This document shows positions 5,222-53,644 of a stretch of DNA of 64,000 nt, in pieces. The position numbers and the translations under genes were made by a program. The notes beneath the pieces are model-generated. The model made no database searches. It saw only the letters and a program-made list of their open reading frames with translations, and was not told the DNA's origin. Source of the DNA: Cliona cf. orientalis (lineage: Eukaryota; Porifera; Demospongiae; Clionaida; Clionaidae); contig OZ005696.1 of NCBI GenBank assembly GCA_963930775.1, positions 930,001 to 994,000 on the forward strand, read 5' to 3'. Numbering within the stretch: position 1 is the stretch's first letter; each line of letters opens with the position of its first letter.

Positions 5222-6104
5222 AGCAAATGCTATGGCGTAGAGCCCACAATCAGAGAAATTGGACTGCTTCTAAAGAATGTTAAAAGATTACTATTAAATT
5301 CCATATTTTATAGATTATGTATTTATTCACCAGATTGTTGGCATATTCAATAGTAATTTTTTTTCTCTTCTGTCATTAAGGTTACGGGATAGTGTTCAGC
5401 CCATGCATGGTCAAAGTTCACATGAATAATAAATGAGACAGTTATATTCCAGTTTTAGTTTACATTCTTTGCACAGTCAAGGCACAGGTAAGTAGCTCTC
5501 CTGATGCCTGCCCCATGGTCCACAAAAACGCGGCCCTCCAGGACAAAACCTTGTCTGACGACTCACCATCTTAGAATTTTAAAAAAAGCGCTATACCTGG
5601 CCCTGCTCTGATCAATGGACTATCGTCAACGACAGCAAAGTCAGTTCGTTCGAGTCTCTGGTCTTCAAAAGTTGACGCAAGAAAGTTGGACTTTGTTTAC
5701 ACCTGGAAATGGTCGACGTTCGTTCGCGTTTCTGACTAAACCGCATTAAAATATACGTGAATTGTGTTCATGCGCAATCATTTATAAATTGCGCGTCGAA
5801 TACTATCCCGTACCCTTAATAAGGAAGCAATTTGCTTCTTTGCATCGGCTGGTAGTGTACCCAGGAGGCTGTCGTACACTCGGATGTGTGCACGATCCAT
5901 TCCCACGGTGGAAACTGTTATCCAGTAGTTTCCACCGGAAGGGAGAATCTTAACAGTAAAGAATTTAGCTCTCTTTCTTAGAGCTTGCTTATCGGCCTTG
6001 GTAAAACTGCTGGGGTATCTTCCATCTTTGATGTAAGTGTAAATTTCGGTGAACGAAATCTGGCATCCTGCTGGTCCTCTTCTTTCGACGACGTCATCTG
6101 CTCG

Positions 6105-6262
6105 GCTGTAGTAGTAGTAGTCTCCTTCACTGTAGTAGTAGTAGTAGTAGTAGTAGTATCCTCCGCTGTAGTAGTAGTAGTAGTAGTCTCCTCGGCTGTA
6201 GTAGTAGTCTCCTCCGCTGTAGTAGTAGTAGTAGTAGTATCCTCCGCTGTAGGAGTAGTATC
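6105..6262. repeat. Interrupted (GTA)n trinucleotide repeat
   Basis: Runs of GTA are interrupted by TCTCCT and TCCTCCGCT blocks at regular spacing, giving a higher-order repeat of roughly 20-35 bp. On the minus strand one frame reads as poly-Thr with acidic TAEE/TAED spacers. It could be part of a degraded or unannotated low-complexity exon, but no splice-supported gene model was found. Confidence 0.6.
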
Positions 6263-6445
6263 TATCTCAAATCGATTCTTGAATAATATTGAACTGCAGC
6301 TTCGAGGCCGAATCTCCCCCTTTTATTGACTCACATTGACAGCACTTGAGTAGCGCCATCCTCAGAGATAGCAAAGTTTAATTTCATCAAAGAAAGATGG
6401 GTCCAAGTACAACCGTGCAGGCACATGCGTGCGCAGAATCGGGGG

Positions 6446-36606: not shown

Positions 36607-37627
36607 TATGGAGCTTATTTTGTGTCAAAAATCAGAATTTCGATTTAGAATGTGAAATATAATGTGATTGGGCAATATCAACTGTGAAATGAAGTTTTCA
36701 GTTTGTTTGTAGTTTAAATTTTGACTTTTCATTTGATTTTCAATTTGATTTTCAATTCGATATTTGATTTGATTTTCAATTTGATTTTCCATTTGATTTT
36801 CCATTTGATTTTCGATTTGATTTTCACAATGACATCTTCAATTTGATTTTCCACTTTATTTCTGTTCAATTTTTGTTTCGATTTTCAATCGTTTCATATT
36901 CCATTATTCTATAACCCAGAACAGGTCCATTGGTCATTTTCATTAGAGTGCATGCAATCCTCTCTCAACAATAATTATTACGTTTAACTTGTATGGCGAC
37001 CTTTATTACATTCAATGCAGCACAAACCGAAGTCAAATGTCACTCACAAGTCGAATGATGGGAATCTCACAGCAGTGGTTAATTCTTGCTATATTATAAT
37101 AAAAAACTAATAAAGGTCACCAGGCAAGTAAAATAATATTATAATTATTATTGTTGAGAGACAGCGTTGCACTCATGAAAATGAGCATTGGAACCTGATC
37201 TGGGTTATAGAATAATGGAATGTGAACAATTGAAAATAAAAGTGAAAATTGAACGGAAAGTCAACTAGAAAATCAAATTGAAGATCGTATTGAAATCAAA
37301 TTGAAAATCGAACAGAAAATCAAATTGAATATCAAATTTAAAGAGAATTAAACTATAGAACGAACTGAAGACTTTATTTCAAAGTTGATATTGCCTGATC
37401 ACATTGTATTTCACCCTAAACATTGAAGATCACATTGTGAAAATCAAATCGAAAATCAAATGGAAAATCAAATTGAAAATCAAATCAAACATCAAATTGA
37501 AAATCAAATTGAAAATCGAATGAAAAGTCAAACTGAAAACTTCATTTCACAGTTGATATTGCCCGATCACATTATATTTCACATTCTAAATCAAAATTCT
37601 GAATTTTGACACAAAATAAGCTCCATA
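36607..37627. mobile_element. 1-kb foldback element with long inverted arms
   Basis: The two ends are inverted copies starting TATGGAGCTTATTTTGTGTC. The arms run for roughly 370-490 bp each and contain many tandem 12-bp-like units of TTTGATTTTCAA (or its complement), with unit numbers differing between arms. Inner unique blocks (ACCCAGA, TCATTTTCATTAGAG, TCTCTCAACAATAATTATT) are also mirrored. A middle of about 130 bp is unpaired. GGGTAT lies directly outside both ends (36601-36606 and 37628-37633), a likely 6-bp target duplication. There is no coding frame. This layout matches foldback (FB)-type DNA elements. Confidence 0.85.
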
Positions 37628-37844: not shown

Positions 37845-37961
37845 TTACCTGCTTTACCTTAGATTACTCTATATCCCTTACTTTAATAATTATTATTAAT
37901 AGGGTAATATTAATGTAGGGTAAAGTAAGGGATGTAGAGTAATCTAAGGTAAAGCAGGTAA
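37845..37961. repeat. 41-bp-arm hairpin of the TTACC...GGTAA family
   Basis: The left arm at 37845-37885 (starts TTACCTGCTTTACCTTAGAT) pairs with the right arm at 37921-37961, with about one mismatch and a 35-bp A/T-rich loop. It resembles the TACCTACTTTACC hairpins in the NUP210 introns. Confidence 0.8.
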
Positions 37962-38187
37962 CCCTGTGGTCACTTCAGGAATATTGTAGTCATCAATAAT
38001 TATTACTATTACCATAATAATTATGTTAATTTCTGCTCCCATGGCATAATAACGCTATTATCATGCTATCAATAATAATTATTTTAGTGCAGCAAAATTA
38101 GTTTTTAATGCATTTATGATCTTGGCAATTAAGCAAAAAAACTAATGGTCCCTTGCAATTGGTTAATACAACAATAATTATTGTCTT

Positions 38188-38710
38188 AAATTGACTGTAA
38201 ATCAGCTGTGTATTCACGTTCAATTCTTTGAGTCCAGGTACATCCTGATCCCCACCATCCATAGCTATAGCAACCACGACATTCATAAGCATTGAAGTCC
38301 CTTGAACTGTAATTGCGATTAATTTCATTTCTCAGTCGAGTGAAGCAGCCTGAATCGGTTACAGTGACGCAGCCTTCACTGACACTTCCAGAGTGGAGAC
38401 CAAATCCACCACGACAACCCAACTCTGGAACTCGAGTATAATAGTCCCAATATCCTCCACTGCTTCGTCGTCTATACAAGTTGAACCAAGGTGTACCTCT
38501 ACGAGAGTAATAGGTTCCAATGCGGTAGTTACCAGCAGGCAGTTCATCAGCACCAGCATTGACGGTATTGCATGTCACAGAGCCACATCTTACTCTGTTG
38601 CTGCTCCTGTAGTAAGTGCAGAAAGCTGCCTGGGACGAGGGAAGCACTCCAGTTATAATGGTGGTTGCCAGCAACAAGCTGATCGTGAGTAGGGAGAAAT
38701 TTGTGGACAT
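38188..38710 (-). CDS. Secreted L,D-transpeptidase-like (DUF2778/Tlde1-like) cysteine-rich protein
   Basis: One uninterrupted frame of 174 residues. Residues 1-28 look like a signal peptide (hydrophobic LLTISLLLATTIIT, then SSQA). The body has LPAGNYRIG (about 57-65), PWFNLY, then GFGLHSGSVSEGCVTV with His106 and the SxGC motif ending in Cys114. That His...SxGC(I/V) layout is the active-site pattern of the DUF2778 branch of L,D-transpeptidases, known from bacterial type VI secretion effectors that act on peptidoglycan. Eight further Cys (31, 42, 47, 99, 122, 144, 147, 157) suggest four disulfides, as expected for an extracellular animal protein. A TATA box lies about 100 bp upstream. The family call rests on motif recall, not a search. 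A transferred bacterial gene turned antibacterial secretion product is an inference. Confidence 0.65.
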
Positions 38711-38811
38711 GCTGATAATATTGATGATGCTTCAATTCTTCTCTTCTTTGAATTGTAAATGCATAAGGCTAGGGTAGCTACTGAGCTACTCTTTTAGCTC
38801 CCTATTTATAT

Positions 38812-38822
38812 ACTAGCTTGTT
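38812..38822 (-). promoter_or_regulatory. TATA box of the L,D-transpeptidase-like gene
   Basis: On the minus strand the sequence reads TATATAAATAG, about 100 bp before the start codon. It is the clearest TATA box in the window. It fits a strongly induced or cell-type-specific eukaryotic promoter. Confidence 0.6.

Positions 38823-41269: not shown

Positions 41270-53644
<12,375 letters not shown>

Follow-up and report, generated by a model that had tools for sequence, protein, structure and literature searches.

A gene related to the bacterial Tlde1 effectors on a chromosome of the sponge Cliona cf. orientalis

The locus and its gene

A stretch of 64,000 nucleotides from the sponge Cliona cf. 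orientalis (contig OZ005696.1, positions 930,001 to 994,000; hereafter the window) carries a small minus-strand gene whose predicted protein is related, by its sequence, to Tlde1/DUF2778 (PF10908), a family of L,D-transpeptidase-like effectors of type VI systems and polymorphic toxins. A sequence-only reading of the window, made without database searches, had described a 174-residue frame with a signal peptide, His106, an SxGC motif containing Cys114, nine cysteines and a TATA box, and all of these were recovered (Table 1). The interval it gave for the gene, 38188..38822, covers the coding sequence but starts inside the stop codon and extends beyond the TATA box.

The frame runs from ATG to TAA with no internal stop, and the gene is read as intronless from this single frame and from a second copy elsewhere in the assembly, not from RNA. 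The protein carries R100, H106, S111, G113 and C114, and its cysteines lie at residues 31, 42, 47, 99, 114, 122, 144, 147 and 157. The full motif RGxFxLHxGxxSxGC arose in none of 200,000 shuffles, and the loose form H..SxGC in 823 of 200,000. Within the first 30 residues there is a hydrophobic stretch (mean hydropathy 2.31 over 12 residues) that was equalled in 21 of 5,000 shuffled versions of the protein; for the second copy the figure was 14 of 5,000, and both copies can be said to have a secretion-type start, as the predicted signal peptide had implied. The GC content and third-position GC (GC3) of the two copies (0.46 and 0.40; 0.45 and 0.38) fall inside the window's range of 0.32-0.48.

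Table 1. Features of the window copy and of the repeats beside it.
Feature	Position in window	Strand	Evidence
Coding sequence, 174 aa and stop, single exon	38186..38710	minus	Open reading frame
Signal-peptide-like start, about residues 1-28, cleavage site inferred	38627..38710	minus	Hydropathy against shuffles; also present in second copy
Stretch matching PF10908 Tlde1_dom, profile positions 27-112 of 120	38312..38542	minus	27.1 and 27.6 bits, cut-off 30.1
Catalytic block R100-C114, R-G-x-F-x-L-H-x-G-x-x-S-x-G-C	38369..38413	minus	Alignment with relatives; also in second copy
C-terminal tail, residues 138-174, with C144, C147 and C157	38189..38299	minus	Scant likeness to bacterial relatives in alignments
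TATA box (TATATA begins 38812), 102 bases upstream of ATG	38807..38812	minus	Sequence match
ATTAAA, possible polyadenylation signal, 76 bases after stop	38104..38109	minus	Weak, six-base match
Foldback repeat, 1 kb, long inverted arms of short units, 3' of the gene	36607..37627		
Short palindrome, 3' of the gene	37845..37961		

A second copy under selection

When the sponge's 216.8 Mb assembly was searched with the protein, a single other clear relative came up (contig C7, E 3.8e-47, 53% identity); two further matches had E > 1. The PF10908 model run over the assembly returned the same two places and none besides. The two copies lie on different contigs, each of about 10 Mb. Like the window copy, the second is a single frame; it has its own hydrophobic start, a TATA box 117 bases upstream and an AATAAA, and it retains the catalytic residues of the window copy.

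Over 162 codon pairs, identity between the copies was 36% at third positions, 70% at second and 59% at first. The proportion of synonymous differences (pS) was 0.84, which is beyond correction, and that of nonsynonymous differences (pN) was 0.33, giving a pN/pS of 0.40 (bootstrap range 0.31-0.49). As synonymous sites are saturated while pN/pS is 0.40, the two copies separated long ago, with both proteins maintained by selection. Eight of the nine cysteines align between them (seven non-catalytic and the catalytic one), and the ninth is present in both, out of register. Each copy would therefore hold eight non-catalytic cysteines, a number fit for four disulfides. The animal copies are richer in cysteine than the bacterial relatives counted, as had been proposed from the nucleotides: among 57 relatives there were four cysteines in 36, three in 14, five in 4, two in 2 and six in 1.

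About 0.8 kb from the second copy, a plus-strand frame (L007:3476-3829) matches NPP1 (PF05630, 22.2 bits, cut-off 21), a mainly microbial family; it is possibly a second transferred gene.

Relationship to Tlde1

The only Pfam family matched was Tlde1_dom, PF10908, with E 6.2e-6 (27.1 bits) for the window copy and E 2.7e-5 (25.0 bits) for the second, in line with the kinship to DUF2778 proteins such as Tlde1 that had been suggested from the motif. YkuD, named beside DUF2778 as a family to look for, was not found; its model, PF03734, did not match the window protein at E 10, nor anything across the genome at 0.01.

A tblastn search with the second copy retrieved 19 records, with E up to 10, from 72,556 plasmid records, and five of these were annotated as DUF2778. 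Pfam confirmed Tlde1 in H6 and in the cyanobacterial record H24, and H14 was without a Tlde1 match; another tblastn match, L012 from Vibrio, was set aside on the same ground. The two animal copies and four plasmid or phage relatives found by tblastn have R-G-x-F-x-L-H ... S-x-G-C-x-T invariant, and the upstream elements P-x-G-x-Y-x-I and W-F-x-L-Y are likewise invariant in all six. A motif scan of 84,980 species then gave 73 stretches, mostly from Enterobacterales. L029 and L070 were rejected as short chance frames and L047 looks frame-broken; 60 of the 73 had the full domain, or 59 after dropping L047. Separately, L135 yielded no frame in a motif scan.

A hidden Markov model (HMM) of 56 of these pattern loci, filtered by length only and thus including L047, matched the window copy with E 1e-9 and the second with E 4.2e-11, and the best of 4,000 shuffles reached 0.18. 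Conversely, a profile built from the two animal copies placed 59 of 59 full pattern loci and six of six further relatives above all 2,790 decoys, together with three of 28 PF10908-sampled rows, most of which are of a distant kind. The best score among the relatives compared was 41 bits (L028). Ten of the relatives scanned exceed the PF10908 cut-off (P0003-P0006 and six more). The published motif H-X(14-17)-(S/T)HGC is not found literally in the animal copies, which have H-x4-S-[EL]-G-C, and it is equally missing in its literal form from P0004-P0006, all of them over the cut-off.

The motif used to pick the 73 pattern loci came from the animal copies themselves; the invariant block of these loci, and part of the motif-profile scores, follow from that choice. 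Within the pattern-locus alignment the active-site H, G and C are fixed in this way, and R100 is not. A control profile was therefore made from 15 relatives found by tblastn, Pfam or profile and not by motif. It gave E 5e-9 (34.9 bits) for the window copy and E 1.7e-11 (43.0 bits) for the second.

Further searches were negative within their scope. A six-row profile run against the PDB gave three chance-level matches, Tlde1a not among them; a PADLOC scan of both copies had no match, and viral contigs, scanned three times by protein and once by pattern, gave no relative.

The predicted active site

In Tlde1a (PMC9638812), the terminal D-alanine is handled by catalytic C131 together with H121 and H129; for D-amino acid exchange, all Tlde1 subfamilies are held to have R115 and G130 in common. 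R115, H121, G130 and C131 of Tlde1a, as given there, match in order R100, H106, G113 and C114 of the window protein, and the distance from Arg to His is six residues in both (R115-H121 and R100-H106). W75 aligns with the W of the bacterial WFALY and may be the counterpart of Tlde1a W93. The position of H129 is occupied by E or L in the animal copies.

Judged by these alignments, the catalytic core is retained in the animal protein, and its most likely function is that of an L,D-carboxypeptidase/transpeptidase, secreted and directed at the stem peptides of bacteria. The gene is an animal's, and animals have no peptidoglycan of their own that an immunity gene would protect. The protein is likely to be secreted and to modify peptidoglycan as an antibacterial enzyme. 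Of the features by which a Dae2-like capture would be recognised, those seen were a bacterial family, a signal peptide (by hydropathy only), a kept active site and a host genomic setting.

Genomic setting and origin

TSSC4 adjoins the window gene, and NUP210, spread over several frames, lies farther out. Ten Wnt matches fell in three loci of the assembly, and none in 14 control genomes, of which those named are bacteria. By its three Wnt loci, TSSC4 and NUP210, the genome is that of an animal.

Of 398 sampled genomes of Pseudomonadota, 53 had PF10908, which also occurred on two cyanobacterial plasmids and in phage JC1. None of 296 Bacteroidota genomes had PF10908 in a scan whose own controls were equally silent. 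Tae4, another captured effector, had no match in the sponge genome.

In a 56-row tree the animal pair joins L019, a Rhs-type toxin of a Janthinobacterium bin, with support 94/89. When 24 distant PF10908 rows were taken out and six relatives added (38 rows), the pair stood apart from all others under a midpoint root, with long-branch warnings. The distant rows, which look alphaproteobacterial, are not close to the animal copies (HH probability 0.05). A start hairpin, C-x-Y-x6-[LIV]-x-C, occurs in the two animal copies and also in L019 and L130, both of the Rhs type; all 29 PF10908 loci and the 58 other pattern loci lack it. Signals of the donor are split, as the best profile scores come from Enterobacterales and the start hairpin resembles the Rhs types. 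An old transfer from bacteria to an animal is the simple reading and the best explanation, and the old gene transfer proposed at the outset is supported to that extent.

Tlde1 domains at the ends of larger proteins were met repeatedly. L038, L019 and L130 are Rhs-type proteins with terminal Tlde1 domains, and L019 carries a pair of these ends on a single 3.4 kb contig. On cyanobacterial plasmids, L132 and L133 are large proteins ending in a Tlde1 domain over the Pfam cut-off; L132 has FG-GAP repeats in a gene of 8.6 kb, and the L133 frame is at least 387 aa.

Interpretation and alternatives

The interpretation first given to this gene holds for the Tlde1 kinship, the secretion-type start, the extra cysteines, the animal chromosome and the old bacterial origin, and is not supported for a role of the adjacent foldback element. 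Starting from the observed homology, conserved catalytic residues, two maintained copies and animal neighbourhood, we consider it somewhat more probable than an even chance that a Tlde1-type gene was transferred long ago, refitted, duplicated and kept by selection, and that it encodes a secreted enzyme limiting or digesting bacteria. Beyond those observations we infer the direction of transfer, secretion, the disulfides, enzyme activity and the antibacterial role. On this reading the animal lineage would have received a bacterial gene for an L,D-transpeptidase/carboxypeptidase with the RGxFxLHPGxxSxGC motif, such as type VI and Rhs-type systems deploy against rivals, and a signal peptide and non-catalytic cysteines, even in number, would have been added to it later. 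Duplication would have followed, with selection keeping both copies since. Once secreted, the enzyme would attack the stem peptides of peptidoglycan with the Cys114 thiol, activated by His106, while Arg100 would hold the D-amino acid, and the animal could thereby limit or digest bacteria outside its cells. A narrower proposal is made tentatively, with confidence somewhat short of even: that the toxic tip of a contact-killing system (Tlde1, possibly Rhs-type) has become a secreted, disulfide-braced immune enzyme that poisons bacterial walls as it trims stem peptides and swaps in D-amino acids. We know of no animal immune effector that acts on peptidoglycan by both stem-peptide trimming and D-amino-acid swapping.

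Alternatively, a protein of the same ancestry might be a digestive or fragment-trimming carboxypeptidase, working on peptidoglycan in the food vacuoles of a bacteria-filtering animal and having no part in defence. Its anatomy would be identical, and sequence cannot tell defence from digestion. It is nevertheless unlikely, as the stem-peptide exchange and trimming by Tlde1a kill cells (PMC9638812), and an antimicrobial effector role is described for Dae2, the transferred peptidoglycan enzyme of ticks (PMC7962413).

Rather less likely again is that the transferred gene was turned to a host substrate or to a binding role, for instance in the cross-linking or recognition of some component of the matrix or of a symbiont. 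The long branch, the extra cysteines and the different C-terminal tail do speak of heavy change since transfer, but neither copy has lost R100, H106, S111, G113 or C114 despite randomised synonymous sites.

The kinship itself could be questioned, and several results weigh against it. Both copies score under the curated PF10908 cut-off of 30.1 bits, and the gene is for this reason called a relative and not filed as a member of the family. The window copy had no match in NCBIfam, and phmmer found none for it among solved structures. Structure models, made from one alignment with 23 bacterial rows and another with 58 of the 59 (L055 left out), were weak and did not place H106 relative to C114, and the second lacked an L,D-transpeptidase fold. 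Masking the 14-residue catalytic block drops the profile scores to 1.6-5.6 bits, and the masked shuffles that did as well numbered, per 2,000, 11 (window copy) and 25 (second copy) for the motif-chosen profile and 11 and 0 for the 15-relative profile. These points suit a cysteine-rich secreted animal protein, unrelated to Tlde1, whose H..SxGC block is convergent. When the block was kept and the rest shuffled, however, none of 2,000 reached the full score for either copy with either profile, and the best such shuffles fell 12 and 17 bits short of the true scores with the 15-relative profile. From the masking and motif-kept shuffles, the flanks contribute a similarity that is real but modest, and the case leans mainly on the catalytic block. 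With the E-values of that control profile, the upstream elements common to four relatives and the tblastn records already annotated as DUF2778, convergence seems very improbable. Bacterial contamination or an assembly chimera, which a single-exon gene of a bacterial family might bring to mind and which had been named as a check on the first interpretation, can be dismissed almost entirely, as two diverged copies lie on separate contigs, each with a TATA box upstream, the base composition is within the window's range and the animal genes TSSC4 and NUP210 share the contig.

Comparison with known systems

The likeness to Tlde1a, a type VI effector whose L,D-transpeptidase fold is altered (PMC9638812), extends to the active-site order R, H, S, G, C, to the small single domain and to the presence of conserved disulfides (C37-C111 and C66-C86 in Tlde1a). 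In contrast, the animal protein has a secretion-type start, nine cysteines and no type VI delivery; it has eight residues from H to C where Tlde1a has 10, and no His before GC. The HPGxxSxGC Tlde1/DUF2778 proteins of Enterobacterales and Pseudomonas (among L013-L085) share H-x4-S-x-G-C, by choice of the pattern, and WF-LY upstream, but when aligned with the window copy show 22-33% identity. Most of them begin with MALxGKFxxN and have a conserved FSGxGxYRN, which the animal copies lack or have lost. The Rhs-end domains of L019 and L130 share the start hairpin, L019 has RGGF as well, and both exceed the PF10908 cut-off; they differ in being fused to Rhs repeats and in low overall identity, and the join of L019 with the animal pair is one between long branches.

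Dae2 belongs to the Tae amidase family, and the bivalve lysozymes of phage origin cut the wall and do not trim stem peptides. The nearest precedent for an animal Tlde1-type gene is Dae2 of ticks (PMC7962413), likewise a transferred antibacterial gene whose product the animal secretes; its enzyme family is different, and its activity is described whereas the animal Tlde1-like protein is known here from sequence. The bivalve lysozymes (PMC5303276) are likewise animal-acquired enzymes against the bacterial wall, of another kind.

Full-text matches on DUF2778 concerned Paraburkholderia and phage JC1. Judged by title or the start of the abstract, the Tlde1 papers found dealt with bacteria or phage throughout and included no animal Tlde1; by title, papers on Tlde1 with horizontal gene transfer and eukaryotes included no animal gene, and none of the listed matches on sponge horizontal gene transfer and transpeptidases was, by title, on a Tlde1-type gene. 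The main text of a compendium of animal gene transfers contains neither 'transpeptidase' nor 'peptidoglycan', and that of an Amphimedon study neither DUF2778 nor a transpeptidase. To our knowledge, Tlde1-like proteins were previously known only from bacteria and phages, and their range is extended here into an animal chromosome. Ticks provide a known case of a captured bacterial effector serving as an antimicrobial. A case from another animal, with a second class of enzyme kept in two copies since an old duplication, would point to repeated capture of this kind. It would also provide a defined protein for studying microbial control in bacteria-rich animals, sponges among them.

The foldback element and other window features

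It had been suggested that the foldback repeat beside the window gene helped its arrival or copying. As a carrier of the gene this element is rejected, as it is a genome-wide repeat (at least 153 matches, with 40 of 137 candidate places scored) and the 9.9 kb around the second copy hold no match to it longer than 27 bases; among the matches listed, the nearest is more than 0.9 Mb from that copy. One match, on C5, is 99% identical, and with so many copies the repeat has perhaps been active recently.

Elsewhere in the window, a minus-strand frame with long tyrosine and glycine runs (5778-6266) is a simple repeat open in several frames. Another minus-strand frame (44577-45620) follows a reverse-transcriptase-like stretch, matches GIY-YIG weakly (E 7.8e-4, under the curated cut-off) and is probably a Penelope-like element.
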